A DNA stretch of 64,000 nucleotides, taken from NCBI GenBank assembly GCA_950295325.1, contig OX485806.1, positions 49,161,169-49,225,168 of the forward strand, read 5' to 3'. The notes under the pieces were generated by a model. That model worked only from the letters and a program-made list of their open reading frames with translations. It was not told where the DNA came from and ran no database searches. This document shows, piece after piece, positions 30,183 to 63,168 of the stretch; the stretch's first letter is position 1; every line of letters starts with the position of its first letter. The stretch comes from Polytrichum commune. Its lineage: Eukaryota > Streptophyta > Polytrichopsida > Polytrichales > Polytrichaceae. A program made the position numbers and the translations under genes.

Positions 30183-30662
30183 GGACGACATAGCTATGTG
30201 AGCGTAGAGCAGAGAGCGGAGAGCGGAAAGGAATTAAATTTAGTAAACTTCTCATACCAAATTTAGAAGTATTAAAAAAATCTTGAATATTCTCAGTATA
30301 TTCTAGATTCTCCTTAAAATAGTATAAAATTGTGACCTATTTCCATGGAATATATAGGTCCAAAAATAAATCAAAAGGCCCTGAATTTGAAAGGTCTCAT
30401 TACATTTGGAAATCGGGAAGAGATAAAATTAAGATAAAACTAAAAAGTATATGATAAAACCAATGATGAACCAAGAAAGAACGAATGAAAATAATTATAT
30501 GGAGGTTGGTATAATTGAAGAATGGGTCAATCAAAATACAAAGGGCGATCAAGTTTCTTCAATTTTATTCCAACACTTTTGTCTTTGTCCTATGTGGGAG
30601 TCAACTCTAGAGCTTGGACTCCAACAATTATTGTTTGTGGTCGAAGAGCTTATCTTCAGCAG

Positions 30663-41600: not shown

Positions 41601-42150
41601 ATGATTTGAGGCATGTATGTTGAAGTGTATGCTTGATATGTTTTTGGTTTTGGCCTTGTTGTGTATGGGCTGGGGTAGGACCCTCTCGGATCCGAGAGGG
41701 TCCTCAGGTAGTGCTTTGAAGGGCCAGATTTTGATTGAAATGATTTGAGGCATGTATGTTTAAGTGTATGTTTGATATGGTTTATGTGTCGTCCTAGAAA
41801 TGTATGGGCTTGGGTAGGACCCTCTCGGATCCAAGAGGGTCATGGACTAGGGCTTTGAAGGGCCATATTCCGATTGAAATGATTTGAGGCATGACTGTTT
41901 AAGTGTATGTTTTATATGTTTTATATGTCGGACTAGAAATATATGGGCTGGGATAAGACCCTCTCGGATCCGAGAGGGTCCTCAGGTAGGTCTTTGAAGG
42001 GCCAGATTTTGATTAAAATGATTTGAGGCAGGTATGTTTAAGTGTATGTTAGATATCTTCTCGGTTTCGGCCTTGTTGTGTATGGCTGGGGTAGGACCCT
42101 CTCGGATCCGAGAGGGTCATCCGGTAGTGCTATGAAGTGCCAGATTTGGA
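38690..42150 (+). repeat. 139-bp palindrome-bearing satellite, block 1 (~25 copies)
   Basis: The monomer is about 139 bp. Each contains a 24-bp palindrome made of the half-site GACCCTCTCGGA and its reverse complement (BamHI site at the centre), followed by 'gggccagattttgattgaaatgatttgaggcatgtatgtt'. Palindrome positions include 40178, 40318, 40457, 40707, 40846, 40984, 41123, 41263, 41401, 41540, 41678, 41818 and 41958. The many minus-strand 60-90-codon frames containing SERVLP.PIHNKAE are by-products. Confidence 0.95.
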
Positions 42151-42238
42151 ATCAAATGATATGAATGATGTATGAAATGACATTTGGATCACATTATGAC
42201 TTCAATGTTCTCTTGCATTTGTGTAGGAATCACAATCC

Positions 42239-45200
42239 ATGGATCTTATTCTATCGGTGGATCCCTCTGTGGATGACCATAATGTTCAATTGGACGTTCC
42301 TCTAGTATGATTATAAGCATGTGCTTCCCTCCTTGAGTTTTTCGTCGCATCCCATACGTGGCCTCGCTTTCATTGTTATTCAATATTTTTCGCATTACCT
42401 AATGTTTTTATGGTTGCCCGTGTAGAATGATGCACTGGTTGCAACCGACTATTTGCGTCCTCTTGATGAGTCCATCCCAGAGGAGACTGAGATCTTGATT
42501 CGGAGGTCACAAAAAGAAGACTCTAATGTTGTCATTAACCGGGTTTGAATGAAACCTTTTCATAAGTTGCGTTTCTCTATCCCTTTGTGCCGCTTGCGAT
42601 GTCTTCCACTTGTTCGTCCCATCAACGAGGTTGATGTCGCTCGGTTGGAAAATGAGTTCGTCATGGGCTACCGTGACGGTGACCGAGCCTTGTATGTCTC
42701 TCCCTACAACAACCTCAATGAGGTACTCCATGTCTCCGATGACATCCACAATTCTTGGAGTTCATTATGTCAAGAGGCCAATGAGGAATTTGACGCCATG
42801 CTCCAAAATGACCCTGACCTTGAACACCTTTCTAGAAAGATGTTCTACGTGTGGGAAGGGAACCACCGTCTGTCGGCTTGGTGGAGGCACATTAATAAAC
42901 ATCATTTGCTGGATAAAGATTGGCATATCTCTGTTCACTGTATTGTCGTGGATCCAAGGAATTCCACCGCCGTCTTCTTGAATGCCATGAATGACATCAA
43001 TTGGTAAGTTTACTTTTCTTTCCCTTATTTTTTTGCCTTTTCCGGTTTCTTTTTATGTTTCACTTTTATTTGGACCCTCATTACTTCGTCTTTTAGGTCC
43101 ATGGAGCACGATCATGTTAAGGACAACCTCCCTGCCAAATTGCTTCGCATTCGTACATTTGGAAAAATGAAGCTTGAGGATTTCAAGGACCTCATTTCGG
43201 TTGACGACTACAAGATGTGCGAGGCTAAGATGGAGAAGACTCCTACTTGGTATCCCCTCACATTGGATGTCTTCGTCAAGTTCTTGTACAAGGTAATATT
43301 TCTTCTTACTCTAGTTTTTCCTTTCCTCATGTTTTGTGCATTAATCCTTACCCACATTTCTGTTTGTTTTAGAGAGAGATCTCGAATTCGGCGGATACTG
43401 CTGCACAGTTATACCATGAGTCCACTCCCGAGGCTCTTAGATCTGCTACTGGGATTTGGGATGCTATGACAAAAGCCCAGGATAGATTGATCAAAAGTAT
43501 TCGATCTCGGAGCTTTGAGAAGTTCATCTCAATCGCCCATAAGGACAACGGCGATGACTTCTTCCAAGAGGTACTCCCTGGACCTCTTCAATTTTTGTTT
43601 CCCTTTGCCTTCATGTTTTTGTGCTTTTGCTTTATGTATATTCCCTTACATTGCACTATGCATTTTTTCAGATTGACCGTCATTTCTCTACCTTCGTCGT
43701 CCCGGATATGACTATTGAGAAACTGCAAAAGGTGGCAACTACATATGTAGATGCTTCCTTTAAGGCTAGATGGCTTCGGTGGTGGAAACCAAAAACAAGT
43801 TCCTGTCTTCTCTTCCTCTTCGCGAGAAAGCCCTCGATGACTGGCTTCACAAAGCTTCTTTTTGGGCACAGGTGCTCCCATACCTTATACTTTCTGGATT
43901 GTGATTTTGGGTTGTAATGTTGAAATATATTGCATTATGTGTGGGTTACTTTGTGTTTAGTTAGGCCACATTTCTGACTTCATGTTTTTCTCATCTTAGT
44001 TGGAGAAAAGGGTTGAGGGTGAGATCGCCTCATTTGAAAATGAACTCACCATCGACATCGACTGGGTTTCTACTGAAGATCTTTTGCAACCTGCTCATTT
44101 TGTCGAACATTGGAGGCTCATTTTGTGGGACAAGGCTTTTCGAGTGTATTTTGATGACAAGGGAGACTTGAAGTTCACCAAAGGACTCGATCTCATGGAG
44201 TTCGAGGAAGGTCCCATAGCTATCAAGCGCGTTGCTTACCGGTATTCATTTTTGTTTAATATATTTTCTGTTTCGGACTAGTTATGGATGGGCTAAGGAA
44301 GGACCCTCTCGGATCCGAGAGGGTCAAGAAGTAGTGCTATGAATGGAAAGATTTTGATTGAAATGATTTGAGGCATGTATGTTTAAGTGTATCTTAGATA
44401 TGTTCTCGGTGTCGGCCTTGTTGTGTATGGCTGGGTAGGACCCTCTCGGATCCGAGAGGGTCATGGACTAGGGCTCTGAAGGGCCATATTCCGATTAAAA
44501 TGATATGAGGCATGACTGTTTAAGTGTATGTTTGATATATTTTCTGTTTCGGCATTGTTGTGAATGGGCTGGTGTAGGACCCTCTCGGATCTGAGAGGGT
44601 CAAGGAGTAGGGCTTTCAATGGCCAGATTTTGATTGAAATGATTTGAGGCATGTATGATAGATATCTTCTCGGTCTCGGCCTTGTTGTGTATGGGCAGGG
44701 GTGGGACCTTCTCGGATCCGAGAGGGTCATCAGGTAGTGCTTTGAAGGGTCCTATTTTGATTGAAATGATTTGAGGCATGTATGTTTAGGTGTATGTTTG
44801 ATATATTTTCTGTTTCGGCATTGTTGTGAATGGGCAGGGGTAGGACCCTCTCGGATCCGAGAGGGTCAAGGAGTAATGCTATGAAGGGCCAAATTTTGAT
44901 TGAAATGATTTGAGGCATGTATGTTTAAGTTTATGCTTGATATGTTTTCGGTTTTGGCATTGTTAGGAATGGGCTAGAGTAGGACCCTCTCGGATCCGAG
45001 AGGGTCAAGGAGTAGGGCTTTGAATGGCCAGATTTTGATTGAAATGATATGAGGCATGTATGTTAGATATCTTGTTGGTCTCGGCCTTGTTGTGTATGGG
45101 CAGGGGTAGGACCCTCTCGGATCCGAGAGGGTCAAGGAGTAGTGCTATGAAGGGCCAGATTTTGATTGAAATGATTTGAGGCATGTATGTTGAAGTGTAT

Positions 45201-47761
45201 GTTTGATATATTTTCTGTTTCGGCGTTGTTGTGATTGGGCTGGGGTAGGACCCTCTCAGATCTGAGAGGGTCAAGGAGTAGGGCTTTCAATGGCCAGATT
45301 TTGATTGAAATGATTTGAGGCATGTATGATAGATATCTTCTCGGTCTCGGCCTTGTTGTGTATGGGCAGGGGTGGGACCCTCTCGGATCCGAGAGAGTCA
45401 AGGAGTAGTGCTATGAAGGGCCAAATTTTGATTGAAATGATTTGAGGCATGTATGCTGAAGTGTATGTTTGATATATTTTCTATTTCGGCCTAGTTATGG
45501 ATGGGCTAGGGGAGAACCCTCTCGGATCCGAGAGGGTCAAGGAGTAGTGCTATAAATGGCGAGATTTGGATAGAAATGATTTGAGGCATGTAAGAAATTA
45601 TCTTCTTTTGTTTTCATTTCCAATTCTTTGTTCTCATGTTTTCTAATGTGTAGGTGCATTCACCGTGAGCTTGTCGTGAAGAATACTCTTCATTTTTCGT
45701 CCTTGCCTACATTCTTTGATGATTGGATCGATGACACCTCAAAGCTTTGTGTGTACACTCCCATGCAACTTGTAAAATTCCCACGGGTGCATTTGGTGGC
45801 TGGTGGTTGGTACTTGGATTGCTCTCGTGGATTCGTTCCCGACGTAAAAGAAACCCCCTCTACGAAAGCCTCGCTTCCTCTGCCCTGAGGTAATTGAATT
45901 GGAGGAAGAGCCGGAAGAAGATGAGAATCCCCCTCCTCCCATCATTGACAAGGAGGTTGCACCGGTGAAGGCCAAGGCCAAAGGCAAGAAAGTGGCCTCC
46001 AGTCAAGTCTCCACCCGCTCTTACACAAAGGCCTCCGTTCTGGGCACCGCAGCTCCAGCTACCACGGTTGTGAGAAGACCAATGGCAACTCCTTCTGCCC
46101 TTTCTCAGGACCATGTTCCGTCCCATAGCGGTGTCACCATTCCATCCGTGCCGCGAAAGGGGAAGGCTATTGCTCCGGATACCTCCGCAACTTCTTCGGA
46201 GAAGTCCTCGTCTCTTTTTTTGATAGAGAATGTTGACATGGGGGACCTCATAGAGGATCTCATGCGATCTAAAGTTCCCCCTCTCGCTTACCGCCGCATC
46301 CAAGAATTCCTCACTAAGGTACGTAAAACATTATCTTGTTTACCCGTTCTTTTATTTTAATTCAACACTTGTTTTGTTATATTTTTCCTTGGATTTTTTC
46401 TTTCCAGGTTGGAGCGGGTCGTACTCGTCCTAATACCAAGGCTAAGGTGCACACAAGGCTTGATCTACTCTTTGCAGATGTGTCTAAGAACCTTCGTGTA
46501 CCGGACATCTCCTCATCATCGTTGGATGTTCTCCAATGGAACAAGCGTTCTTCCTCTTACTTTGAGGTTCTGTTTGCCTTTGCAAACGCCAACCTCCATG
46601 ACGACGGCGTTCTTGTCTTTCCACATGCCACTGATCCTGACGTGTCTAGATCCATACATGACTGGGCACATACAGAGGACTTCTACGTTGCCGAAGACTA
46701 GTTCGGCATGAATGACCTCGACCTTCAATCGCCTACTAATCCATCGGAGTTGGTAATTCTTTTCTTCCCTCATCGTCTTGTATTCTTGTTTTTTTTCCCT
46801 TGCATTTTTGTATTCCTAATTCAAATTTTTTTTCATGTTTTCCAGACTCGCAAGTTCTTTATCAAGGTTCTCGTGCGTAATGACTCTTTTTTTAATGTCC
46901 GGACCTCGAACTTCGAAAACCTGGCTTACAATCTCAAGAGAGATGGTTGGCTCAATAGCTTCGCCGATTCGAAGAACCAATCGCTGAGGGAAGATGGCGT
47001 GCCTTGGAGAGGTGCTCGTGAAAAGGGCCCCGAGTTTTACTTCATCATTTTCTCCGCTCTCACAGACAAGGACGACATTATCATGAATTGGCAATGTGGC
47101 CTTGGTTGGTTTTTCTTCTCCTTGTTTCTCATGACTTTGTTTTGCTTTGTTTTGCTTTCTTTTTTTATTGTTACATTCTCCATTCATTACCTTATGCTCA
47201 CATTTTCGGATTTCGTTCTTCTAGGAGGTTCCGTCATTGCATGTCGATCTATTCAACGCCATATTGTGGCGCTTCAGTCGGATATCGATATCTTCAAGTC
47301 CATCCTCCTACCAATGCGTGAGACTGACCAAGAACACACTTCAGAGCGTGCTGCCCCACAACGAGGATCGGTTTTTGCTCCTCCTCCCCGGAAGATGGCG
47401 AAGCGCAATTTCGATTTGCTGTGTGCGTAAGTTCGTTCTTGGCTTCTAACTTGCTTTGTTCGATTTTTGTCTTCTCCATTCCGAATGTTTGGCTTGTGCT
47501 AATTTTTTTGTTGTCTCTTTCTATATTTTCAGAGTCCATATTGAAAGCCCGATTCGTGTCCTTAATGCGGACATGTTTTCAACTCCTTCGACGACATTTG
47601 AGCTCCCTTCTTATGCTGCTGACATTGCCTATGTTTTGGCGGAAGCACCGTCCTCACCTTCTAGTCGCACCCGCCCTTTCAACAAATTAGTTTTGGATTT
47701 TCTAGACATAGAGGCCGACCAGGGCGAGGAAAGTGATAGACATGGTAGTCCAAGTTCTTGA
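42239..47761 (+). pseudogene. ParB/sulfiredoxin-like plus DNA-methylase-like cargo gene, 11 exons
   Basis: GT-AG introns give exons 42227-42304 (ATG 42239), 42426-43003, 43097-43292, 43373-43570, 43672-43871, 44000-44241, 45654-46318, 46408-46752, 46846-47103, 47225-47426 and 47533-47761, roughly 900 codons. Residues at 42849-42881 read VWEGNHRLSAW, like the GxHR..A signature of ParB/sulfiredoxin folds. The C-terminal half resembles beta-class N4/N6 DNA methylases: RLDLLFADVSKNL (46456-46494) where DPPY is expected but absent, a segment DDGVLVFPHA, then NWQCGLGGSVIACR and HIVALQSD (47085-47280) like the FxGxG motif and its acidic partner. Methylation activity is doubtful without DPPY. Lesions are TGA at 42546, a frame change near 43790, another near 45870 and TAG at 46699 (probable Trp). 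Domain calls rest on motif memory only. Confidence 0.55.
44270..45600 (+). repeat. 139-bp satellite, block 2, inside an intron (~10 copies)
   Basis: The same monomer and palindrome as block 1 fill almost all of the 1,412-bp intron 44242-45653 of the ParB/methylase-like gene. Palindromes lie near 44301, 44438, 44578, 44705, 44843, 44982, 45110, 45249, 45377 and 45517. Confidence 0.95.
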
Positions 47762-47929
47762 CTACGCCTCGTACGTTTGAAACCTACATCACCTATGTAT
47801 TCTCTATGTTCAAGTGTTTTATAATTTCATTCCCTGAATTTCCATGACTCTTGTTCTCACCACATGGTTCGGCCTAACTGTGTATAATGGCCACATCTTC
47901 ATTGAAATGATTTGAGGCATGTATGTTTG

Positions 47930-49780
47930 AGTGTATGTTTCATATGTATGGGATTCGGTAGGACCCTCTCGGATCCGAGTGGGTCATCGAGTATTACTTT
48001 GAAGAGCCAGATTTTGATAAAAATGTTTTAAGGCATATATGATTAAGTGTATATTTCATATGTTTTCGGTTTCGGCCTAGTTATGTATGGCTTAGGTCGG
48101 ACCCTCTCGGATCCGAGAGGGTCATCTATTAGGACTATGAAGGGCCAGATTTTTATTCAAATATTTTCAGGCATGTATGGAAAAATATATATTTCTTGTG
48201 TTTTCTATTTCGGCCAAGTTGTGTATGTGCTAGGGTAGGACCCTCTCGGATCCGAGAGGGTCATCTAGTGGGACTATATAGTACCATATTTTGATTCAAA
48301 TATTTTGAGGCATGTATGTAAAAGTATATATTTTTTGTGTTTTCTGTTTTGGCCAAGTTGTGTATGTGCAAGGGTAGGACCCTCTCGGATCCGAGAGGGT
48401 CATCTAGTGGGACTATATAGTGCCATATTTTGATTCAAATATTTTGAGGCATGTATGTAAAAGTATATATTTCTTGTGTTTTCTGTTTCGGCCAAGTTGT
48501 GTACGTGCTAGGGTAGGACCCTCTCGGATCCGAGAGGGTCATCCAGTGGGACTATATAGTGCCATATTTTGATTCTAATATTTTGAGGCATGTATGTAAA
48601 AATATGTATTTCTTGTGCTTTTTGTTTCGGCCAAGTTGTGTATGTGCTAGGGTAGGACCCTCTCGGATCCGAGAGGGTCATCCAGTGGGACTATATAGTG
48701 CCATATTTTGATTCAAATATTTTGAGGCATGTATGTAAAAATATATATTTCTTGTGTTTTCTGTTTCGGCCTAGTTGTGTATGTGCTAGGGTAGGACCCT
48801 CTCGGATCCAAGAGGGTCATCCAGTGGGACTATATAGTGCCATATTTTGATTCAAATATTTTGAGGCATGTATGTAAAAATATATGTTTCTTGTGTTTTC
48901 TGTTTCGGCCAAGTTGTGTATGTGCTAGGGTAGGACCCTCTCGGATCCGAGAGGGTGATCCAGTGGGACTATATAGTACCATATTTTGATTCAAATATTT
49001 TGAGGCATGTATGTAAAAGTATATATTTCTTGTGTTTTCTGTTTCGGCCTAGTTGTATATGTGCTAGGGTAGGACCCTGTCATATCCGAGAGGGTCATCG
49101 AGTATTACTTTGAAGGGCCAGATTTTCATTTACATATCTTGAGGCATGTAAGTTTATGTATATATTTCATATGTTTTCTGTTTCGGCATTTTATTTATGG
49201 GCTGGGGTAGGACCCTCTCGGATCCGAGAGGGTCATCGACTGGGACTATGAAGTGCCAGATTTTGATTCAAATATTTTGAGGCATTTATGTAATGGTATA
49301 TATTTCTTGTGTTTTCTGTTTTTGCCAAGTTGTGTATGTGCTAGGGTAGGACCCTCTCAGATCTGAGAGAGTCATCTTTTAGGACTATGAAGGGCCAGAT
49401 TTTGATTCAAATATTTTGAGGCATGTATGTAAAAGTATATATTTCTTGTGTTTTCTGTTTCGGCCTAGTTGTATATGGGCTAGGGTAGGACCCTGTCGTA
49501 TCCGAGAGGGTCATCGAGTATTACTTTGAAGGGCCAGATTTTCATTTACATATCTTGAGGCATGTAAGTTTATGTATATAATTCATATGATTTCTGTTTC
49601 GGCATTTTGTTTATGGGTTGGGGTAGGACCCTCTCGGATCCGAGAGGGTCATCGATTGGGACTATGAAGGGCCAGATTTTGATTCAAATATTTTGAGGCA
49701 TCTATGTAATAGTATATATTTCATATGTTTTCTGTTTAGGCCTAGTTGTGTATGGGCTGGGTGGGACCCTCTCGTTTGGT
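47930..49780 (+). repeat. 139-bp satellite, block 3 (~14 copies)
   Basis: Downstream of the gene the same palindrome recurs at about 139-140-bp steps. The intervening sequence has drifted as a group ('gggactatatagtgccatattttgattcaaatattttgaggcatgtatg'), so this block has evolved separately from blocks 1 and 2. Confidence 0.95.
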
Positions 49781-49789
49781 CTATGTGTG

Positions 49790-50700
49790 TGCACTAGTTT
49801 GGTGGTTAGTGTCGGGTAGGACAACTTGGGGTTCACGGGTTCAACATTTTGTTTTCTTTTTTGAATTTTTCATGTTATGGTGTTGGACTAGTTAGGGACC
49901 CTCTCGGTTCCGAGAGGGTCCATGGGTTGGGGGGTTGATCATGATTTTATGCATGTGGTATTATAGCCGTAATGCTATATATTGCATCCAGGTCATTATG
50001 AGGTGTATTACGTAGGATCCCCTAATTAAGTTAAGGCTATACATGTAGGATGTGTGGTTATGTGGATGGTTCCAACTACATTGTTGGTAGGATCAACTAT
50101 TTTGTATCTTGGCTAGAATTAGCCACTCTTGCAACCGAGAGGGTCTTAGGCTAGGAATGTAGGACCAGATTATCCAATTTCGTTTTCAAAGCTTTCATTT
50201 GTGGATAGTTTCAATTACTTGGTGGTTACTAGGTTAAACTATTTTGTATTTTGGATGGAATTAGACCCTCTCGGAACCGAGAGGGTCTTAGGCTATTAAT
50301 GTAGGCCAAGATTATGGGCATTATGATAAATATTGCATCCCCCCTTCATTATATGGTGTACTAGCTAGGATCTCCTACTCAAGTTAGGATTTTCCATAGT
50401 AATGTAATGCACTCAAATCAAATCAAACATCATAGCAATGATGGTCACCTCCCCTTCCACCCTTTTTACAATGGAGGACTTCCAAGCACATGCCCTTCAC
50501 AACAAATGCAACTTTTCATTGCATTCTCCTACTCCATTCTGGTGAGTGTTCGGACTCTCCCCCTTTGAATTTTTGTTCATGTTTTTTTAGGCCAGATTTG
50601 TGGGTTTAATGCATAAGATGTAATTCTATGTTTCGGTTTTCCCTCTTGGACCCGAAAAGGTGTATGGTATGCAAGATTGTTGGGTTTCATGCATAAGATG
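49790..50700 (+). repeat. Transition zone with isolated palindromes
   Basis: Isolated copies of the palindrome with changed centres occur near 49895 (CTCGGTTCCGAG) and 50264 (CTCGGAACCGAG): the CTCGG/CCGAG arms are kept while the two central bases vary. No gene is seen. Confidence 0.7.
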
Positions 50701-52200
50701 GAGTTTTGTGTTTGAATTTTTTGTGGCTACTTTGGACTTCAATGTTGAATGCGTGTTATTGTATATAGGTTGGACTTGTGTGTGTGTGTATGTGGTTGGA
50801 TTGGACACTCTTCCTTCAAGTATTTAGGACCAGATTTTGTACTTCATTGTTGAATGCTTGTTTGTGTATATAGGTTGGACTTTTGTGTATGTGTATGTGG
50901 CTGGATTGGACCCTCTTCCTTCAAGTACTTAGGACCAGATTTGGAATTCATTATTGAATGCTTGTTTGTGTATATAGGTTGGACTTGTGTGTATATTTAT
51001 GTGGCTGGAATGGACCCTCTTCCTTCAAGTATTTAGGACCAGATTTGGAATTCAATGTTGAATGTTTGTTTGTGTATATAGATTGGACTTTTGTGTATGT
51101 GTATGTGGCTGGATTGGACCCTCTTCATTCAAGTACTTAGGACTAGATTTGGAATTCAATGTTGAATGCGTGTTAGTGTATATAGGTTGGACTTGTGTGT
51201 ATGTGTATGTGGATGGATTGGACACTCTTCCTTCAAGTATTTAGGACCAGATTTTGTACTTCATTGTTGAATGCTTGTTTGTGTATATAGGTTGGACTTT
51301 TGTGTATGTGTATGTGGCTGGATTGGACCCTCTTCATTCAAGTACTTAGGACCAGATTTTGGAATTCATTGTTGAATGCTTTATTGTGTATATAGGTAAG
51401 ACTAGTGTGTATGTTTATGTGGCTGGATTGGACCCTCTTCCTTCAAGTACTTAGGACCAGATTTGGAATTCATTGTTGAATGCTTGTTTGTGTATATAGG
51501 TTGGACTTGTGTGTATGTTTATGTGGATGGATTGGACCCTCTTCCTTCAAGTACTTAGGACCAGATTTTGGAATTCATTATTGAATGTTTGTTTGTGTAT
51601 ATAGGTTGGACTTTTGTGTATGTGTATGTGGCTGGATTGGACCCTCTTCATTCAAGTATTTAGGACCAGATTTGGAATTCATTGTTGAATGCATGTTTGT
51701 GTATATAGGTTGGACTTGTGTGTATGTTTATGTGGCTGGATTGGACCCTCTTCTTTCAAGTATTTAGGACCAGATTTGGAATTCAATGTTGAATGCTTGT
51801 TTGTGTATATAGGTTGGACTTTTGTGTATGTGTATGTGGCTGGAATGGACCCTCTTCATTCAAGTACTTAGGATCATATTTGGAATTCATTGTTGAATGC
51901 TTGTTTGTGTATATAGGTTGGACTTGTCTGTATGTTTATGTGGCTGGAATGGACCCTCTTCCTTCAATTACTTAGGACCAGATTTTGGAATTCATTGTTG
52001 AATGCTTGTTTGTGTATATAGGTAAGACTAGTTTGTATGTGTATGTGGCTGGATTGGACCCTCTTCCTTCAAGTATTTAGGACCAGATTTTGGATTTCAT
52101 TTTTGAAGTCCAAAATGTGTATATAGGTGAAACTAGTTTGTATGTGTATGTGGTTGGATTGGACTAGAGGGTTTTCCTTGAATTATTTAGGACCAGATTT
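50700..52200 (+). repeat. 104-bp satellite (~14 copies)
   Basis: The monomer 'ggaccctcttc.ttcaagta.ttaggaccagattt..' to 'gttggacttgtgtgtatgtgtatgtggctggattgg' repeats every 104-105 bp. It shares 'ggaccctct' and 'ccagattttg' with the 139-bp monomer but lacks the right half of the palindrome. Recurrent 60-codon frames containing VYRLDFCVCVCGW are by-products. Confidence 0.95.
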
Positions 52201-52245
52201 TGGAAGTGTATGGGTTCCCATTTGCTATATGAGTCGGCCCCTTAC

Positions 52246-53221
52246 TGTCGCGCACCTCTCCATGAGGAGTGCCCGAAACACTATGGGCACAAGGGGGACC
52301 CCGGAGTGACACCCGGGACTTGTAGCGCCGTTGGTGAGAGGGCCCAAGTGATCCTAGTGTGGGTGAGGGGCCCGGGCGTTGGGAACGCCTCCCACCCACG
52401 GAGACTAGGAGGCATGAGGGTAAAGCCAAGAGCTATGCGTAGCTCATGGCGTGGTGATTCTAGAATGCTCAAGAACACCTCAATCGGAGGTGTGAGCTAG
52501 GAGTTATGGCCATTTGAGTGGGGCGCTGTCCCGGGACAGCGCCCTGGTACAGCAGTGCCTGGGAGTGATTCCCGGGACTGCCAAGGTTCAAACAGGCATA
52601 ACTTCCTCAAGACTTGCCCGAATGGGGCAAATGAGGAGTCCATCGGCATCTACGTGAAGCGTAGATGAAGATGGAGTGGTTAGTTGTTATGAGCGGACAT
52701 CATACAAGGAAGTTATGATGGTCTGAAGCTGCTGGGGGGGTTCTAGGCCCAGCAGCTAAAGGAAAATGTCCACTTGGCCCCAACTCTTGGTAGAGAGACA
52801 AGAGGTTGGTTGACGGTGGGGTAGGGGCCCCGCGTAAAGTCCTAGAGGCTTATATGGGTGAGGTGGTGTGGCCTCACCCACCCGAGGCCGAACGGCATGG
52901 TCTCCATGGGCTTTTGGCCCATTGTGAGGCCATAGTTGCCTAGTATGGTTCGGGTTGTTGTAGTGTTGCTCCGGCAATGCGATGATCAACATGGGATTGG
53001 ACTTCCATGGATGGAAGTCCACATCTAGGAATGGGTTACCGATTAAGGGGTGAGTCCCGAAAGTAAAGTAGGAGGGTTGGTTCCCCTCCTATGAGCTATA
53101 AGGTCCGGGGTAGGAGGAGCTAACCATTAGCATTGCGGAATGCGAAGGGTTAGCACTCGTAACCTTTGCTAGAAACAAAAATTGGCAAGATTATTAAGGG
53201 GGGCTAGCAAGGGTTGCGACA
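52246..53221 (-). mobile_element. Solo LTR (976 bp) with CTTAC target duplication
   Basis: Reverse-complement match to 25232-26203. The ends are TGTCGC/GCGACA and CTTAC lies on both sides (52241-52245; 53222-53226). It carries a perfect 24-bp palindrome (half-site GGGCGCTGTCCC) at about 52520-52543 and several smaller hairpins. It is inserted at the end of the 104-bp satellite. Flanking 'tatgggttcccatttgctatatga' is duplicated on both sides (52208 and 53276), reflecting pre-existing repeats. Confidence 0.85.
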
Positions 53222-53589
53222 CTTACACCAGAATTTGGAAGTTTTTTTTTTGGATCATTTGTGTATGCTAAGTGTATGGGTTCCCATTTGCTATATGATT
53301 TGGCCCCTCACATATGATTATGGCTAACTCTCGGCCAAATTCCAGATTTCATTTATGTTGAGTTCATGTTTGGCTATTGGAGGAATCAAGCCCTCTCACC
53401 ACATTCGGTATCATGTGGGTAGGTAAGTTGATTCGGCCCTTACCCTACATTTTGAAGTTTATTTGTTATTTATGTTGGATTATGTAGTTAGGCATTTGTC
53501 TCAGTTCCGAGAGGCTGCAAGTTTCGACCTCTTACACCAAATTTTGATTTTATTTTATTATGAATGTGTGTCCTTGTGTGACTCATCAG

Positions 53590-54020
53590 GTAACGCAAGA
53601 ACGCGCGCATTCCACGTCATCGTGCCACACGTATTGCATCTGGACCTAGATGTACAGTTGTCCGTATTAGTTCCCAACTTAGTGGTGGGTGCTACAAAGG
53701 ATTATGCGAGCCGGGAGAGGGCCTTTGACACCAAACGCCGTTTGTTGGTAATCGGCAAATTGAGGCTATGTAGCAAAGCATGGAAAAGGATTGTGGATAG
53801 GAGTGTGGAGTACAATGCTCTTCGTTTGGCGGCGCATGAGTACTCCATGGGTCCACATGCTCTCCCACAGTTGTGTTTGCCATGCGAACAGAACCTCGTC
53901 AAACTTTTTAAATTGAATTTCATGTTGTTCTCACAAAGCCGGCACCTAAACCCAAAAATTTCCAAGAGGATTTTGAGGTTGAACTTGGGGGATTTGTCTT
54001 TGCGTTCTTTGGCTAGCTAA
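53590..54020 (+). CDS. Unrecognised ORF near right end of the 24-kb element
   Basis: After a good 3' splice-site context ('gactcatcag' at 53580-53589) an open frame of about 143 codons begins NARTRAFHVIVPHVLHLDLDV and contains SRERAFDTKRRLLVIGKL, AWKRIVDRSVEYNALRLAAH and ISKRILRLNL, ending at TAG-like context 54018-54020. AATAAA follows at about 54148, so a transcript end is plausible. I do not recognise the family. It is moderately basic with no membrane segment. It may be the last exon of a longer gene broken by the solo LTR and satellites. The open frame extends upstream to 53463, but that part reads as intron-like sequence. Confidence 0.35.
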
Positions 54021-54445
54021 GGGATGAATTGGAAGGCTGTTATGGTGCGGTGGAGATCTATGGCATGTTCTAGAGTAGAGTATATAGCTACTTGAACTGA
54101 CTACCCATTTTTGTAAGTCTTGAGGTTGGCTACATTTTGTTGGCCAATAAAATATTTTGTTTATGGTATTTTGATTTCAATTGGTGACGTCAGCCCTAAT
54201 TTAATATGAAACATATACTATAAGATGTTTGATAACAAATGCAATCTTCCACGCCTATAGGATCCGTTGGTTTTTCGAACAATTCTGGATTATTATGTCC
54301 ACGGGAATGGGGTGCCTTTCCAAATATAAAATTCAAACTATCTCTAATTCCACGGAAAAAGGCACTGCTTCTCCTAAAATTACCCAACAAATCTCCGCTC
54401 TCTGCTCTCCGCTCTCTGCTCTACGCTCACACTACTAAGTTTCCC

Positions 54446-54455
54446 GGTCATATGC
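54446..54455. repeat. Right 10-bp target-site duplication of the 24-kb element
   Basis: GGTCATATGC, identical to 30173-30182. Confidence 0.85.
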
Positions 54456-54815
54456 TCTATCCTGGATATACAATTCTCATAGAATTCCTTTGTTCCACCA
54501 TATTGTGTAGCCTACATTGGATACATTGTTGATCAAACAAAACTTGATGAGGCCAAAATTGGTGTTCTTTAAGACATATGCCTCGGCACTAGCTTGGATC
54601 CAAGCATGTTGCCAATCTTTGGAATTTTTTTGGCCCATGTAACATTTGAAGATAGATGTTTGTCACCCCCACTCTTCACCTTACTAAGCTTCATGTATAC
54701 ACCCCCCGCCAACTTGTTAATGCTCTTCAACCACATCACATTTTGCCATATCAAGAATCCACAATAATTGGCATGGGCTTGACACTCTTAACCATTTCCT
54801 TAATATCTCTTCCCT
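54456..54815 (-). pseudogene. Kinase-like pseudogene, N-terminal part
   Basis: The minus-strand frame contains WAKKIPKIGNMLGSKLVPRH and, with frame changes, a continuation toward the insertion point. By position and strand it is the missing N-lobe side of the pseudogene at 29600-30172. Stops are frequent. The link rests on order, strand and the target duplication more than on recognisable N-lobe motifs. Confidence 0.35.
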
Positions 54816-55261
54816 CCAAGGAATTGTTGGTGGTTGCCTTGGGCAACCATTTGGCCATAGAACCCCAACATCCAAAAACTTCCCGCATTTTCACTCAAAC
54901 ATTGAAAATTTGTTTCTAAGGTGGAAAATGTTATGAAAAAATTACTTGAAATTGAAAACCCCATTTTGGACCTTATTCTACACCCAAAAACCAAATCCTA
55001 TGAGATTTCTATCCCCAATAGATTTAGATCTATCCATTGCTAATCAAATGGAATTTTCCATGTCTTTCTTGATTCATTAGCCATTTTTTGTTTCCAAAAA
55101 TCTTAAAATTTCCACTTGATGCCATGGGGCACTCTACAGGATCTTTATGCACCAAGTGCAATGGATGGTATTTGTTTAAAGGTTATTTACATCCAACGCA
55201 TGATTTAAAAAATCCTTATAATTATTTAAATCTCTAAAATAACCTTATTTGTTTGCACTAA
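54816..55261. other. Spacer between the two MULE-like elements
   Basis: AT-rich, no gene or repeat recognised. Confidence 0.5.
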
Positions 55262-55547
55262 GGGAAGCTATCTTATGAGCAGTGAGCGGTAACACATGAA
55301 CAATGAATCCAAATTTAGTAAAGACACACGGGTTTAGGGTACATAACCAAAATTTTGACAAATTAATTGCATATTTTCAATTGTAAATTGCCAGTATTTT
55401 AAATGAAGTACAGGTAAAAGGGCCCTATTGCCATGGATAATTTAAAACACTTTCAATCCATTGCTAATTTTTATTAAAATAATCCAAACCAATACATGTC
55501 ATTTATTGACATCCTTATACATGTAGTTACAACCAACACTTGCACAA

Positions 55548-57200
55548 CTACTCACATTCTACAACACCAGCAAGTTCAAGTAGGTGTGTAACCTCATTGT
55601 ACGTATATGTAGGTGCCAACACATATTTCTTCTTAGTGCCATTTACACAATGCTTGATGTCATCAGGGCAAAACCAAAATTCATACTCCACATTGTTGGT
55701 AGAACGAAATTCCTTCTTGAGCCCTTTGTATGTTGGTGCAAGTGTGTCATGTTTGCTACTCCCGACTTTGGCATTGCACATAGTCCCTGTAATGGCTTGT
55801 AATACCCAACATCGTTTAACTGAGTTGGGTGGTAATCTTGCAATGTGCCAATTGGAAATGAAACATTCAGTCTCTAAGATAGTTGTAATATGAACCACAT
55901 CATGCTCTACAAAAGTCAACGATTCATCTATGCATTGGCGAGTTGTCCGGCTGTTAGGACGAGGAATTGAATAATTCACTTTGTGCGGGTCGATGCAAGT
56001 TGAATTTTTGTTTGGTGGATCCAAATAACTCGGACCCTTCCCATGCACAATCTCTGGTTTTGGCGCCTTCTGTCCCTAGGTAAAACTTCATAGCATCTGC
56101 CAACATTTTTTGATCCCCATACTTAGCAGCTGCTTTGAGTTTCAAGGACGCAAAATCCGGGCCTTTACCATCTGATCCCCCTTTCAACCATGCCCAATAA
56201 TTTGCAATTTGCATGAAAGTACAAATCATGTCATCCACTGTTGTTTCATATAAACAAATCATCTTGTTGCCGGATTGTTGGAGCCATTTGTTGTATACAG
56301 TTTTTGTAAAGTTGCATTTTGGCATTTTTGCATGTTCTTTGATTGTCATATCCTATGAACCATACACAAGTATAGGGATAGGAAAAATGAATTATAAATG
56401 TGTTAGAATAAAAATAAATCAGCAAAAATTCAATGACATTGAATAATGTAGATTATTATACACTTACAAGTAACATATGACCACCCCATTGTCTATAACG
56501 GAAATGCCAAAATTCCAACCACTTTGAAAGGCCGAGGATGCCTTCCTCTGTGGTAGCTCCGGATGACAACCACCAAGAACAAATGACATAGTACTTAGTC
56601 TCAGCATCGCCCATTGTTTTTGCATCTTTGTAATCCTTGCAAAGTTGTTTGTGTTGAAATTGCAATGATGGTTTGATATACGTCTGTGTCACCTTATCCA
56701 AACTTGCATACTAATAAAAAAACATACACGCTCATGTGCGACCATGGGCAAAGTTTGATCACCATCACTGTAAATCATCCTCACCGCATTTCGATTAGCT
56801 TGAGCACTGAACACCATGTTCGAAATTTTGGGAAAATTCCATGATTTTGGGAAAATACAGTTTAGGTTGAGTCGACCTAAAATGTACCCACTGGGTACAT
56901 TTTAGGTCGACTCCACCTAAACTGTCATCAAATTGGGAGACTGGAAATCTCCCAAAATTTCGAATATGGTGTTACTGTCTGCCATGAACCCTTTGAAAAT
57001 TACCTTTGAAACATCATTCTCTGTCATTACAACATTCAAAATTTTCCAAAAGAGACTTTGTGTTGTACCATCCTCAGATTGTATGTCACCACACGCAATA
57101 GTCAACACTTTACAAAATCGACTATCGTACACATGACAAACAATTGTTGTCCAATCTTTCACACATTTAATATGTGTGGGTCACGCTCACGGGTTGAATT
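55548..57200 (-). pseudogene. MULE-like DDE transposase, decayed and interrupted
   Basis: Reading leftward: CVKDWTTIVCHVYDSRFCKVL and QSEDGTTQSLFWKILN, then VIFKGFMADS (ending at 56978), an insertion (56810-56973), then AQANRNAVRMIYSDGD and LPMVAHERVCF. A TAG at 56713-56711 replaces a probable Trp, followed by LDKVTQTYIKPSLQFQHKQL, SWWLSSGATTEEG and EFWHFRYRQWGGHMLL. An intron (56466 to about 56351, GTAAGTG..TTCATAG) joins MTIKEHAKMPKC and ICLYETTVDDMICTFMQIAN. After one frame change (about 56050) it continues VHGKGPSYLDPPNKN and ends APTYTYNEVTHLLELAGVV. The spacing of acidic residues and the SWIM-bearing relative at 31430 support a MULE-type transposase. SWIM cysteines are not clear here. 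Non-functional. Confidence 0.6.
56810..56973. mobile_element. 164-bp foldback MITE-like insertion
   Basis: Starts AACACCATGTTCGAAATTTT and ends with the near-perfect reverse complement. The centre is a second inverted repeat (CAGTTTAGGT.GAGTCGACC..TGTACCCA and its complement). It is flanked by ACTG on both sides (56806-56809, 56974-56977). Removing it with one ACTG restores the transposase reading ADS-AQAN.NAVR across the junction. Confidence 0.9.
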
Positions 57201-57239
57201 AAAGCTCATAATTGACAAAAAAGAAGAAGTTAGATATCA

Positions 57240-57600
57240 GAATTAGTCAATATGTAGGTAGTTACTAGGTTTTGAGACATCCACCTGTGGATGCAAGTTG
57301 TGTAAAAAACTGGTATTAGGTTTGGATCAACCCGGGTTTGAATCCAGTTGGTTACATTGACTGGTGCTATCCCAAATTGAGTTAATAATAAAGCATGAGT
57401 AATTTATAGGAGGATACAAAGAAGAGGTTATTACGCGGGTGTGCGTAGAATCTTCTCGATTTTTTTTTATCTTTAGAAACTTGTTATTATTTATCCGTGT
57501 GAATCAATCAAACCGCTCACGGTTGGGTCATAGTCTAAATAGAAATGAAATTAGTAAATAGAAATTAGATTTAGGTTAATTAATTAGTATGAAGAAATGT
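57240..57600. other. Spacer, no gene seen
   Basis: Contains 'gggtttgaatcc', which resembles a tRNA B box, but no A box or tRNA fold is visible. Confidence 0.4.
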
Positions 57601-58050
57601 AGACAATGGGTGAAGAACAGCGAAGGACAATGTCAAAGGAATGAACGACAACGTAACACGACGCCGAATAGATGAAGGACAGTGAAAGACAACCTCGAAA
57701 GAATGAATGACAGCGTAGGACGACGCCGAACGGATAAAGAACAACGTAGGACGACGACGAATAGATGAATGACAACGTAAGACGACATCAAATGGATGAA
57801 TGACAACGTAAGATGATATTGAATGAATGAATGAAGGCGTAAGACAACGTCAAATATAGGACATCAACGAACAGAGGATGATATCAAACAGATAAGATGT
57901 CGAGTGGATGAAGGTATAAACGTATGACAACAACAAACAAAAGATGATATTAAACGGATGAAATGTTGAGCGGATGAAGGTATAAACGAAGGACAACAAC
58001 CAACAGAGAATAATGTTAAGCGGATGAAGTCGAGCGGATGAAAGCCATTA
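57600..58050 (+). repeat. 31-bp degenerate tandem repeat
   Basis: Units around 'gacaacgtaagacgacatcaa' + 'atggatgaat' recur every 31 bp (57741, 57772, 57803), with increasing divergence towards 58050. Confidence 0.8.
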
Positions 58051-58149
58051 GATCAAACGGTTGGGAAACCATGACCGTTGGATCTAGGGGTTTAGATAAT
58101 GGCGGCTAGGGTAGGGACGGCCATAAAGGCCAACCGTTAGATGAAGGTA

Positions 58150-59220
58150 TGATTTGATTTGCATAGGTTATAGCCAAGGTAACTCTTACAACAATCCGCA
58201 TCTGCAAGGCAATATCAATTTTTTTTTCATGACAGGCAAGTGCAAGGGTTCCAACCCAACCAACATGGAGGCAATGGACAACAACCTTCCCATGGAAACC
58301 AAGGCTACAACCATGATACCAACTGGAACCAATGATTCAATAGAGATGACCGTAACCTAAATTCTGGTCGTAACCAAAATAAAATTAGGGGTCAAGCCCG
58401 ACTGGGTCATCCTCATCAACCAAATTTCCAAAACGCTCGGTATGTCGACGTGAATTCCATGGACCCAATGGGCAATAGTGATCCAATCTTCCAGATAACA
58501 CTCGTTGTACTACACGAGCATAAGCCAATGGTCTTCTCTACTCTTCTTATGGGGTTGGAAAAAGAAACGGTAGATGCCGAAGTTATGACTAGAGCCCAAC
58601 GGTTAGTCAACCCCCCTATATAACACATGGTGGACCCCCTACTTTCTTGGATGGATCACCAAACTTTGTTCAATTGAACAAGGTCATTAACTCCGCCATT
58701 CAAGATGCCCTCAATGAACCCCTTCTTAACAAACCCTCTACTGAGGCAGTACCATTGGTAGAATCTGATGAAGATGAAGATGACGACGATTTGTACCGGT
58801 TTGTGGACATCTTAGAGAATAGATCAGATGGACCTTTGAAACCAAAACCTCCATATTCATCCCTTCTTCTAAACAAGACCAAGTGTGCACAAAAAAAAAC
58901 TTAAAAATGTAAGAAGAAGGGTGCGTGACTTTGACAAATAGGAGAAGGAAAAAAAATTGAAATTTTCTATCACAAAGCAATTATATAGGGCCAAAATGGA
59001 ACGACAAATGAGTAGGGTCACTTCATGTGACATCAAAGACACTGCACGCGTACTAGAATTTCCTGCAATAGAAAAAAATGAAAATGTTGAAATCGAGACG
59101 CAACATAACAAACAACCCTTCATTTTTGGAAATGATGATGATAAACGAGTGAGCAACACTACCAACGATATGTCTGACGTAGAATAAGAAAGAGAATGTA
59201 CTTCCATTTACAATGCACCG
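58150..59220 (+). pseudogene. Unrecognised coding remnants upstream of the ParB-like paralogue
   Basis: Several broken frames in one direction are visible. The first is Q/N/G-rich (HGGNGQQPSHGNQGYNHD near 58260-58310), followed by FQNARYVDVNSMDPMGNSD (58425-58480) and LGLEK-type sequence. Then comes 58647-58904, with an acidic run (ESDEDEDDDDLYRFVDILEN), and 58957-59187 (IKDTARVLEFPAIEKNENVE), running to a possible 5' splice site at 59221 (CCGGTAAGT). These may be upstream exons of the ParB-like gene or a retrotransposon gag remnant; I cannot decide. Confidence 0.3.
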
Positions 59221-59379
59221 GTAAGTTTTTGATGGTGTTATGTATAGATGAGGCAATTTCCAATTGATATCACCTCCTCAACCCCATTGGATTACCTACC
59301 TCTTCTTTGCCTATTCTATGTCGATATTATAGCCGTTGTCCCAATTTTCTTGTATATTTGTCTCTTGAAAAAAAATTGT

Positions 59380-60235
59380 GAAATAGGGGTTTCGGTACGA
59401 AAACCCTATTCCACAATATTTTTTTCAAAAAATATACTTCTAAGTAAATAATTTTGTTGACATCATAGTCGGTGTCCTCATTTCTTTTCCAGGTTTATTC
59501 TTGAAAAACATTTGTGGAATAAGGGTTTCGGTACCCAAACCCTTATTCCACAACTTTTCTTCAAACAATATACTTCTCAGTAGATAATTTTATGTTGACG
59601 CCATAGCCGGTGTCTTCATTTTTTTCTTTTTTTATTCTTAAAAAAAAATTTGTGGAATAGGGGTTTCCGTACCGAAACCCCTATTTCACAACTTTCTTTC
59701 AAACAATATATTTCTCATTCAATAATATCATGTTGACACCATAGCCGGTGTCTTCATTTTTTTTCCATGTTCATTCTTGAAAGAGAATTGTCGTATAGGA
59801 ATTTCGGTACCGAAACCCCTATTCCAGAACTTTCTTTCAAAAAAACGTTTTGGTCCTTCACCAATTTATTATGACACTACAATGAATGTCTTCAATTTCT
59901 TCTATGCGTATTTCTTAAAATAATGTTGTATATTAGGAGTTTCGGGACCAAAATTCCTATTTCAGAACTTTTTTTCAAGTATTAAAATTTCTTCTTGACT
60001 AATTTAATGTCTATGTTACAACTGTGGCATTTTTTTTTGTATGGCTATTTCTTGAAAGTAAGTCACGAAATAGGGCTTTCGGTACTACTCCATAGTTTCT
60101 TTTAGAAGAAGTACTTCTAATTTGTCAATTTCAAGTACAGGGGTTAGCCATCTGCCTCATGTTTTACCATGTTTATTTCTAAAATAAAAGCTTTGGAATG
60201 GAGATTTCGGTGCCGAAACCCTTACTCTAAAATTT
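59380..60235 (+). repeat. ~138-bp palindrome-bearing tandem repeat (7 degenerate copies)
   Basis: Copies of a palindrome with half-site AATAGGGGTTTCGGT (KpnI-like centre) start near 59391, 59528, 59665, 59803, 59941, 60078 and 60206, spaced 137-138 bp (last step 128). Between palindromes lies 'gttgacaccatagccggtgtcttcatttttttcc', which contains a smaller GACACC/GGTGTC inverted repeat. The copies are diverged, and the arms decay more slowly near the CGG/CCG core. Confidence 0.9.
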
Positions 60236-60464
60236 ACTTGAAAATAAATATTATCTTTATCAAACTATTTAGGTGTTTTCAAGTCTATATGTGTGTTTTG
60301 TATTATATCAAAATGTTGATGGTTGTGTCAATTATACAGTCATGTAGGTGGCCTTTATTCATTCTTTCATTGAACTTTAAGTGTCAAGTATATTTCATTT
60401 TATAGTTTAGTTTATTTATTTATTTGAAGTTACTTATAATGTACATTTGATGTTTTGTTGTAGA

Positions 60465-62310
60465 ATGGATGATTATTTGTTGCATGATCTTTTTCACTTA
60501 TTATACGTTTTTCTTTGGTTGTTAATATGTATGATTACATTTTGGCAGACATCGACATTAAAGAAACATAAAAAAAAAAGTTACAATAAACAAATTTCAA
60601 CTATTAGACCAATTCTAGAATTTGATGTTCAGTTGTTGGAGAATGAATATTTCAATGGTTATAGGGAAGGTGATTGTGTTTTGTATGTTTCTATTGTCAA
60701 CGATCGTGGGGAGAATTTATGTGTAATAAATGACAAGTTGAGATCTTGTGATCCAATATGGCAACAAGTGAACGATGTTTTTGAGTAGTCACTTTCCCCA
60801 GATGAGGATTAGAAGGTTTTTAAAGATAAAATATTTTCAATATGGGAGGGTAATCACCAAGTTATAGCATGGAGACGGCACATAGATAAAGTTCATGTTG
60901 ATGAGAAAAATTAATATTATAGTGTGGATTGTATATGCCTTAATGCAATGGATGTGACTGGCATTCTCTTAGATGCCATGAATGACGTCAATAGGTTAAG
61001 CCTGAAGCCCATTGATTTCAATTTTTTTTGTCAAATGCATTGAAGATCAATCTTATATTTATAAATTTATTTTGTTGAATATCAGATCCACGGAAATTGA
61101 TCATGTGAGGATCAATTTGGTTTATAAAATCCATTGCATTTGGAGTTTTGGGACTTTGAAGCTACAAGAATTTAAATATATTTTGTCCCCTAACGATTAT
61201 GCTAAGTGCGAGAAGAAACGCCCATGGACTACATGATATTCTCTTACTGTAGACATTTTTTCAGCTTTCACCTACAATGTGAATCTTTAAAATCTGAATG
61301 TCTACATCAATTTTATGCTCTTACATTAAGTTCTTTTATTATTTTAAACTAAAAAATTTCAATGTTGTTTTCATCGTAATGTTGTAGCAGCATCAAAAGA
61401 GGCATATTATGAGGACAAAGACAACATTCTATTGGCCCAAAGATCTTCCAAGCTTGAATTGGAGGCTACAGCAAATGCGGTGAGATAAACAACCAAAGCA
61501 TATAGGTTAAAAGAATTTGATAAACTCCTTGCAATTGCGGATCCCGCAAATGGCATTGATTTTGTGAAAGAAATAAGTATTTGTATTATTTATTTGATTT
61601 TTGTGATATGTTTTGTTTCATTGTGTATTTTATATTTAAATTTATTTTAAGGTAAATGGGCATTGGAGTTCTAATCCTAAACCAAAAATGATCTTGGAGA
61701 AATTGCAAAAAATTACAACAACTCCGGTGAATGGCAAGTATAAAGTGAAATGGTTGAAGTGGTAGAATTCATCTCCGATGACACGCGAGGCTTTGCATTT
61801 CTTGCCTCCAAATTTTATAGACAATAACCTTGATTTATGGTTGGTGAAAACATCATTTTGGGCTCAGATTATATTATGAATTATAGTTGTAAATGCATTT
61901 ATGCTTATGAAAATATCATAATTAGCGTTTTTATTTGTTAAGATAGTTATTTGACATAACGTTTTATGTATGAATTCTAATTTTTAGTTGGAGGAAGGTG
62001 TCATCAATGAGTTTCATGACATTCTACCACAATTGGGTGATGTGGTTTAGAATAACGTCCTTTATGTGATTCATTGCCACCTCCTATTGTCCATAGTTTG
62101 CAATTAATTAACATGGTATGCAAAGATGACGAGTCTATTCAAAAATCTCCAACGAAATCTCGCTTGAGTGCATAAGTTTGTTGGTTTGAATGATTTTAAA
62201 ATTTTGGTTTTTCTTGTGTACTATTTAGTCTTCCACCAATTGTTTCTAACATTTTTGGATATTGCATGTAGAAAAATGAAGGATGCGATGTCCCCCCCTC
62301 ATCAATTGAT
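60465..62310 (+). pseudogene. ParB-like cargo gene paralogue, truncated and decayed
   Basis: Exon by exon it parallels 42239-47761. From 60549 it reads STIRPILEFDVQLLENEY and GYREGDCVLYVS, matching RPINEVDVARLENEF and GYRDGDRALYVS. At 60840-60872 it has IWEGNHQVIAW, the ParB-like signature. At 61085-61236 it has STEIDHVRINL, FGTLKLQEFK and LSPNDYAKCE, and near 61660-61870 KPKMILEKLQK, VKWLKW and VKTSFWAQ; LEEGVINEF follows at 61988. In-frame stops (for example 60786, 60913, 61235, 61762 and 62048) show it is dead. The methylase-like half of the larger gene is missing; recognisable similarity ends by about 62160-62310. Confidence 0.65.
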
Positions 62311-62469: not shown

Positions 62470-63168
62470 TAAATAATAAAATATAGATACATGAAGAGGT
62501 CTTGCACATGACTTGGTATATATGTGCACATGTTTTTTTTGTTTTTGTGTGGCAATTATCTAGTTTACCCTAAACTCTAATCACTAAGAGTGATTTGTGT
62601 GACCATTGTCTAAAATTCCTAAACCCTAATGATTTCCACAACATCATTGTTTTATAGCTTTCATCATTGTTTCAAATGTTCATATGAATTGGAGCAATCA
62701 ATTGGCAAGTTAGTTTTTGGCAGGTAACATCTGTTGATGTTTGAGCTACAAATATGTGGTAATAGGATACCAAACCCACGGTGATGGGTATGTTTCTTGA
62801 ATTTTTCTCACCCTAATCCGCTCATTAATTACTGCTCACTGCTCATATGATAGCGTTCCCTGCTTGTATCTTATCATCACTTATATTTTCCCATGCCAAT
62901 GCAGTTTACAAATGTTTATATTCCTCTTACATAAAAAAGAGTCCTTGTGAATATATAAAATCATGTCCATACATACCAATGCATATTTACAAGAACCACA
63001 TCTATACATAGTATTGTTAACACAAATCCATACAAACCATTGCAAAAAAAACTTGTGCTCCAAGTTCATATTACAAAATGAAACAATTTTTTTTCCACAT
63101 TTGTGAAATGCAATTTTTATCCATCCAATGTGCACTATGCTTACAAACACATCATACTAGACATTAAT
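62470..63168. other. Right end of second MULE-like element and spacer, no gene seen
   Basis: AT-rich. The terminal inverted repeat lies at about 62817-62860; beyond it nothing is recognised. Confidence 0.5.

Follow-up and report, generated by a model that had tools for sequence, protein, structure and literature searches.

A ParB-methyltransferase-like gene and palindromic arrays in large DNA transposons of Polytrichum commune

Clustered palindromic sites are a feature of the ParB/parS, Noc and KorB systems. In Arabidopsis, VANDAL transposons encode VANC, a protein described in the available parts of two papers as binding a motif repeated in the introns and upstream region of its own element and as reversing silencing, with loss of DNA methylation (PMC5735166; PMC10398659). 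Accessory genes of the ParB-N4/N6-methyltransferase type are found in algal transposons, for example in Sola1-1_Ec32 of Ectocarpus, a giant DNA transposon of 21.5 kb in which this gene lies on the strand opposite the transposase; according to the accessible portion of the source, green and red algal cases have also been reported (Iyer 2011; Petroll 2025), and the authors suggest that the algal protein binds its own element's sequence (PMC12477816). ParB-CTPase-N6_N4-methyltransferase fusions are documented in phages and prophages, nucleotide binding having been measured for some ParB-CTPase proteins (PMC12704722, available text), and retrotransposons with captured 5mC methyltransferases are also on record (PMC5890265, available text). 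An earlier note on the DNA presented here, made from its letters, knew of no plant system of this kind. This has to be amended in view of VANDAL/VANC, in which a transposon protein is combined with tandem motifs of its own element (PMC5735166), and of the ParB-methyltransferase genes listed for brown, green and red algal transposons in the portion of PMC12477816 at hand.

The transposon and its ParB-methyltransferase-like gene

The stretch analysed (the window, 64,000 nucleotides) contains two elements, of 24 kb and 7.6 kb. MULEs are recognised by long terminal inverted repeats (TIRs) and a target site duplication (TSD) of 9-11 bp. The 24-kb element has TIRs of 43-48 bp at both ends and a 10-bp TSD, whose inner 9-mer, on the + strand of the window, is confined to the two TSD copies; these features, along with the SWIM-like motif that a divergent frame contains, fit a MULE. 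Because the transposase-like frames gave no match in Pfam, MULE/MuDR domain included, and offer the SWIM-like motif only, they are called presumed transposase here. In the 7.6-kb element, inverted repeats are present and a clear TSD was looked for and not found. A short AACCCTA tandem array is also present in the window (TRF).

30173-30182, no strand: left TSD copy of the 24-kb element, GGTCATATGC, repeated at 54446-54455
30183-30230, + strand: left TIR of the 24-kb element, degenerate in its outer bases
31430-32038, - strand: presumed transposase gene remnant, divergent, SWIM-like CxC...CxH at 31559-31636 (motif scan)
54398-54445, - strand: right TIR of the 24-kb element; a similar end was read in the clade-2 copy
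54446-54455, no strand: right TSD copy of the 24-kb element, GGTCATATGC
55261-55292, + strand: left TIR of the 7.6-kb element (inverted-repeat match)
62829-62861, - strand: right TIR of the 7.6-kb element (inverted-repeat match)

The gene of interest spans 42239-47761, inside the 24-kb element, and a decayed relative of its ParB-like exon is found in the 7.6-kb element.

42239-42304, + strand: first coding exon, ATG at 42239 (read by eye, guided by the gene model of the clade-2 copy)
42426-43004, + strand: ParB/Srx-fold exon, with WEGNHR and fold matches; stop at 42546-42548 in the window copy
43098-44242, + strand: four further exons, middle protein region, no family found (open frames, clade-2 gene model)
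45848-46321, + strand: exon of the proline/lysine-rich linker (open frames)
46411-47761, + strand: C-terminal exons, N6/N4-methyltransferase-like, and gene end (similarity shown on relatives, clade-2 copy)
60594-60992, + strand: ParB-like exon in the 7.6-kb element, decayed, WEGNHQ, 43% identity over 133 aa, three stops

We propose with high confidence that the product is built of an N-terminal ParB/Srx fold, a middle region, a Pro/Lys-rich linker and, at the C-terminus, a region similar to permuted N6/N4 DNA methyltransferases. The window copy itself is broken by stops at 42546-42548 and 46699-46701 and by an apparent frame change near 43770, in the third of the four middle exons. The ParB exon is nevertheless under purifying selection: among 26 ungapped copies, including the window copy, and after pairs with dS <=0.05 were dropped, the median dN/dS is 0.12 in clade 1 (129 of 136 pairs) and 0.08 in clade 2 (25 of 36 pairs), values that are biased downwards because mostly open frames were chosen. 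Almost all of the between-clade pairs (150/153) are saturated.

The predicted structure of the N-terminal domain has the beta-alpha topology of the ParB N-domain and Srx, with weak Foldseek matches (best E 0.017). Of the 102 retrieved proteins matching a looser box-II pattern, 85 have the G-x-x-R of box II in the form WEGNHR, and R107 is conserved at 90% or more in the ParB-domain set A1. The kinship to ParB and Srx that the earlier note had put forward, with a structure check as the way to examine it, is thus borne out by Foldseek and by the G-x-x-R, and so is its report of a gene with WEGNH(R/Q) in both elements, WEGNHR being read within 42549-43004 and WEGNHQ in the 7.6-kb copy. In sulfiredoxin, the catalytic Cys is part of a G-x-C-H-R signature; the motif here reads GNHR, without that Cys, and a sulfiredoxin identity was dropped.

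Searches by sequence gave little. Pfam returned no match for the window ParB exon, none for the middle region (clade-2 stretch) and scattered chance rows only for the 49 members of set A1. In PDB, phmmer with the ParB domain yielded rows at E>=1.3 only, and the ParB-domain profile two unrelated rows (E 0.27-0.29). The ParB domain had no match in PHROGs and no confirmed match in IMG/VR or in GTDB contigs, and relative P0105 had none in phage records. From these null searches, whose reach is close relatives only, a close prokaryotic source was therefore not found in these collections.

The C-terminal region, absent from the earlier note, resembles a permuted N6/N4 DNA methyltransferase of the beta class: it shows the order of that class, motif IV then motif I, and a Rossmann-like fold, in a structure model with a pLDDT of 57.5. 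At the motif I position, D-W-Q-C-G-V-G is mostly conserved. The catalytic motif of N6/N4 DNA methyltransferases is (D/N/S)PP(Y/F/W). The one occurrence of this canonical form is in P0131, within its proline-rich linker; none is at the place of motif IV, where the motif-IV-like strings read FAD(I/V)PENL in 55 of 73 cases (272 proteins were retrieved, many ending before that region). The Pfam family PF01555 matches the methyltransferase region weakly (E 0.068), and it matches no member of set A3. The C-terminal profile of A3 found nothing at E<=1 in PDB, because its rows presumably hold translated introns; single C-terminal sequences performed better than this profile.

Palindromic arrays and their pairing with the gene

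Tandem arrays, most of them palindromic, lie before, within and behind the gene, and a decayed one is found in the 7.6-kb element.

37952-38400, + strand: 96-bp tandem array without palindrome (TRF, palindrome scan)
38709-42164, + strand: main palindromic array, 139-bp units, immediately preceding the coding exons (TRF in two rows, palindromes, column conservation)
44253-45592, + strand: 139-bp palindromic array within an intron (TRF; intron inferred from open frames and the clade-2 gene model)
47957-49774, + strand: 139-bp palindromic array 3' of the gene (TRF, palindrome scan)
49896-49921, + strand: single palindrome, centre TT (palindrome scan)
50263-50288, + strand: single palindrome, centre AA (palindrome scan)
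50731-52164, + strand: 104-bp array in which the TCGG palindrome is absent and the CCAGATTTTG motif of the palindromic arrays is present (TRF, motif scan)
59363-60240, + strand: palindromic array in the 7.6-kb element, 138-bp units, decayed (TRF to 59978, last exact core 60207)

Exact TCGGNNCCGA cores number 37 in the window, and palindromes that are perfect with an arm >=10 and a spacer <=2 number 31; each of 10 first-order Markov simulations gave 0 or 1 of either. The cores are confined to the two elements, with 35 in the 24-kb and two in the 7.6-kb element, and 28 of the perfect palindromes lie within 38941-50288; the decayed array of the 7.6-kb element has none of arm >=10. Among 49 monomers, conservation reaches 97% in the 24 columns of the palindrome and 84% in the remaining columns, two figures to which array homogenisation may add. 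The 24-mer palindrome is exact in 23 of these monomers, has one mismatch in 19 and more in 7. The arrays of ~138-139-bp monomers described in the earlier note are therefore real, although its statement that every monomer contains the palindrome holds only if mismatches are allowed. Its placing of an array immediately upstream of the gene is right for the main array (38709-42164), which nevertheless falls outside the interval it had singled out (42239-62310), and has to be widened to the intronic and 3' arrays.

The genome (407.8 Mb, 64 contigs) was searched twice for the gene, with 1240 and 1256 first-look candidates, 150 of which were scored and matched per search, window copy included. Besides the window, 31 copies were inspected, in stretches of 10 kb (20 copies), 5 kb (6), 3.4 kb (3, one extended) and 2.2 kb (2); the two 2.2-kb stretches, L040 and L041, represent clades outside the 150 scored rows of the first search. 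At least one exact TCGG-NN-CCGA core is found in 29 of the 31 copies, which are not independent because several, e.g. L025-L028, are near-identical in score, and at least four cores are found in 27, for an expectation of 0.056 per 10 kb. L037 has a single core. In L008, a stretch of 10.8 kb contains one core and a degenerate array of two units, and the cores of L019 are all behind the gene. Elsewhere, no core is found in window positions 1-38000 and 52500-59000 or in L029, two are found in L030 and five in L031; the last two, 5' and 3' flanks of gene copies, may lie inside the elements of those copies. The exceptions are L040, with no TCGG core and a 95-bp array of a different palindrome, GGGTGCCGTTAACGGCACCC, and L041, with no TCGG core, one palindrome, AATCCCACGGATCCGTGGGATT, and no tandem array within 2.2 kb. 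We are thus highly confident that gene and palindromic arrays are paired recurrently, as the proposed co-occurrence would have it in all but these two copies. The TCGG-NN-CCGA centre, said to be shared, is indeed common to both window elements, but it is a clade trait and not universal.

The palindrome arms track the clade of the gene, with GACCCTC/GAGGGTC and CACCCTC/GAGGGTG on the one hand and AGAGGCC/GGCCTCT in clade 2 on the other. A difference in one arm is mostly matched by its complement at the corresponding site of the other, which preserves the symmetry; the outer arm is asymmetric in L019, L020, L035 and L036, and the outermost pairs are looser in other copies too. The two central bases are variable, most commonly AT, AA, TT, CT or GT, and unit length and spacing differ widely between copies while the palindrome persists. 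With the truncated L016 and the single-core L037 excluded, arm distance follows protein distance over all 25 copies (Mantel r 0.905, 0/5000 permutations) and within clade 1 (r 0.679, 16 copies, 0/5000 permutations), a correlation that is expected because of linkage within one element and that does not in itself demonstrate contact. Linkage does not explain, however, that both arms differ jointly and that the palindrome survives the turnover of its unit.

Possible functions and comparison with known systems

Our tentative reading, which we hold to be somewhat short of probable as a whole, is that of a transposon accessory protein which would sit as a dimer on the arrays of its own family and control their chromatin in a VANC-like manner. 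The fold match, the C-terminal similarity, the element structure, the gene-array association, the symmetry-preserving arms and the purifying selection are established from the data, whereas array binding, dimerisation and anti-silencing are inferred. The product would act as a dimer that recognises the palindromes which its own element carries outside the coding sequence, in the 5' region, an intron and the 3' flank, and an array of such sites would concentrate it there. Most likely, it would act on the chromatin of its own family, as a sequence-specific anti-silencing comparable to that of VANC on VANDAL, and the clade-specific palindromes would limit it to its own kind. The gene product probably binds the array, a recognition that the earlier note had inferred for it or for a partner, even though another protein, e.g. 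the transposase, could bind the palindromes instead; anti-silencing as the outcome is possible, if doubtful. A more elaborate version, in which a putative ParB-type nucleotide-driven DNA clamp would load at the clade-specific arrays, spread and shield the element from silencing, the arrays being a parS-like 'self' tag that co-diversifies with the protein, seems quite unlikely.

Other functions were considered. The element could mark itself chemically, an active methyltransferase region placing N6-methyladenine or N4-methylcytosine on it, in or close to the arrays; the label would serve transposition or counter silencing by the host. The methyltransferase-like fold, the largely preserved motif I and the proposal of own-sequence binding and modification made by the Ectocarpus authors (PMC12477816, accessible portion) agree with this, but the non-canonical motif IV, FAD(I/V)PENL in 55/73 strings, makes it unlikely. 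The palindromes could alternatively be sites of the transposase, or of a complex of transposase and ParB-like protein, in the control of copy number, target immunity or end pairing. In the window as in the clade-2 copy, the main array does separate the ParB-like gene from the divergent transposase-like frames, and a dyad symmetry suits a dimeric enzyme; arrays are, however, also intronic and 3' of the gene, away from the ends, and their place and number vary between copies, and we regard such a role as rather improbable.

The position of arrays directly before the coding exons, with further copies in an intron, is also what would be expected of regulatory satellites (enhancer or insulator) read by a host factor, the gene product having another job and linkage alone explaining the correlation. 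That both arms differ with the gene by clade is hard to fit to one conserved host factor, which renders this explanation distinctly improbable. Tandem arrays arise easily in transposons, and homogenisation could keep any motif alike in palindromic satellites that have no function and owe their amplification within the element to chance. CpG is usually mutable when methylated, yet the palindrome columns are the better conserved ones (97% vs 84%) despite their CpG content, and the palindrome stays when the unit length changes; chance amplification is thus very improbable. Least credible is a ParABS-like segregation role, segregation being one of the options of the earlier note, or a plasmid-like origin: a ParB-like fold and clustered palindromes are all that speaks for it, whereas the gene belongs to a eukaryotic transposon in integrated form, bounded by terminal repeats and a target duplication, and no ParA-like gene was noticed in passing among the listed open frames. 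This extremely improbable candidate was dropped.

With ParB/parS, Noc and KorB, the present system shares the fold of the N-terminal domain and the clustering of palindromic sites, and it differs in that the gene sits in a eukaryotic transposon. Canonical ParB proteins also have an HTH domain, a C-terminal dimerisation domain and a ParA partner, and they bind CTP and slide as DNA clamps; the middle region of the present product gave no Pfam match. The phage and prophage fusions have the same two domains in one protein and an association with mobile elements, but they are prokaryotic and arrays are not described for them in the available text, in which a word search for 'plant', 'transpos' and 'palindrom' gave 0 occurrences (PMC12704722). 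The retrotransposons with captured methyltransferases likewise carry a DNA methyltransferase-type gene, in their case for a C5-cytosine enzyme in a retroelement, a ParB domain being unmentioned in the part of the paper at hand (PMC5890265). Sola1-1_Ec32 comes closer, with both domains in one product and an accessory gene opposite the transposase strand in a giant DNA transposon; it belongs to another superfamily and host, and palindromic arrays are not mentioned for it in the accessible text (PMC12477816). Algal transposons are already reported to have the ParB-methyltransferase pairing, which is therefore no novelty in itself (PMC12477816, same portion). What is new, as far as the literature searched goes, mostly without subscription journals, is this pairing in the present element type together with matched clade-specific palindromic arrays. 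For the algal cases, own-element binding was proposed and a binding site is not named in the portion available (PMC12477816); here, one genome offers a candidate site that varies naturally between several clades, each variant with its protein counterpart, and the question of whether a transposon marks itself by sequence becomes directly testable.

All this looks like a system by which an element recognises its own DNA, in a large family of plant transposons, and VANDAL/VANC is its nearest functional parallel. Both are DNA transposons with a non-transposase gene and with tandem motif arrays in the non-coding regions of their own element, motif and protein diverging between related families (PMC5735166; PMC10398659, available parts). 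The function of VANC has been tested, whereas the present system is known from sequence and predicted structures. The domains of VANC are DUF1985/DUF287, and its 9-bp motif has a single orientation (PMC5735166), in contrast to the ParB/Srx and methyltransferase-like regions and the 20-28-bp palindromes found here, and no Pfam match to DUF1985/DUF287 was obtained in the gene parts scanned. Beside the solution of the VANDAL elements, the present transposons would offer a second one, by an unrelated protein.

Motifs and palindromes in and around the arrays

A second motif, CCAGATTTTG, is common to four arrays of the window, and is counted 11 times in the array at 38709-42164, 4 times in that at 44253-45592, 4 times in that at 47957-49774 and 6 times in that at 50731-52164. 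The last of these is an array of 104-bp units devoid of palindromes. CCAGATTTTG is present in none of the six other stretches in which it was counted; by eye, it is also found in the array units around four other gene copies (L012, L013, L017 and L020).

The elements carrying clade-2 copies of the gene (L025-L028) possess a second palindrome, CCCACGGGTGAACACCCGTGGG, located between about -4200 and -1250 from the ParB exon. It is similar to the outer arms of the lone palindrome seen in L041, a copy from a further clade. Two perfect palindromes other than those of the arrays, as well as three further features, are present in the window:

52521, perfect palindrome GGGCGCTGTCCCGGGACAGCGCCC
52998, perfect palindrome TGGACTTCCATGGATGGAAGTCCA
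9051-11719, transposase of the hAT type, including a dimerisation domain (E 3.2e-10 in Pfam)
20356-21561, open frame resembling a protein kinase (Pkinase of Pfam at E 2.2e-05, short of the curated cut-off)
56857-56925, near-perfect hairpin inside the 7.6-kb element (arms of 34 nt, 97% complementary, 1 nt between them)

The cores of GGGCGCTGTCCCGGGACAGCGCCC and TGGACTTCCATGGATGGAAGTCCA are seen again in several loci, and both palindromes may be part of a nested repeat.

Distribution of the gene copies and their relatives

Among the 150 matches scored out of 1240 candidates, 21 of the 31 other copies that are 84% or more identical to the gene of the window lie on contig C4, between 42.8 and 59.0 Mb, and the clade-2 copies (about 68% identity) are spread over all of contigs C1-C7. 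The clustering on C4 could result either from a recent local burst or from a poorly recombining region.

At L032, a more distant second ParB-like match (1487-1947, two pieces, 38-44% identity) is located upstream of the clade-2 copy there and is perhaps an older element under it. Several of the retrieved protein relatives (P0046-P0076) are encoded on very long contigs, the longest of 973 kb, from one source collection, and may represent the gene family in a second, related genome.
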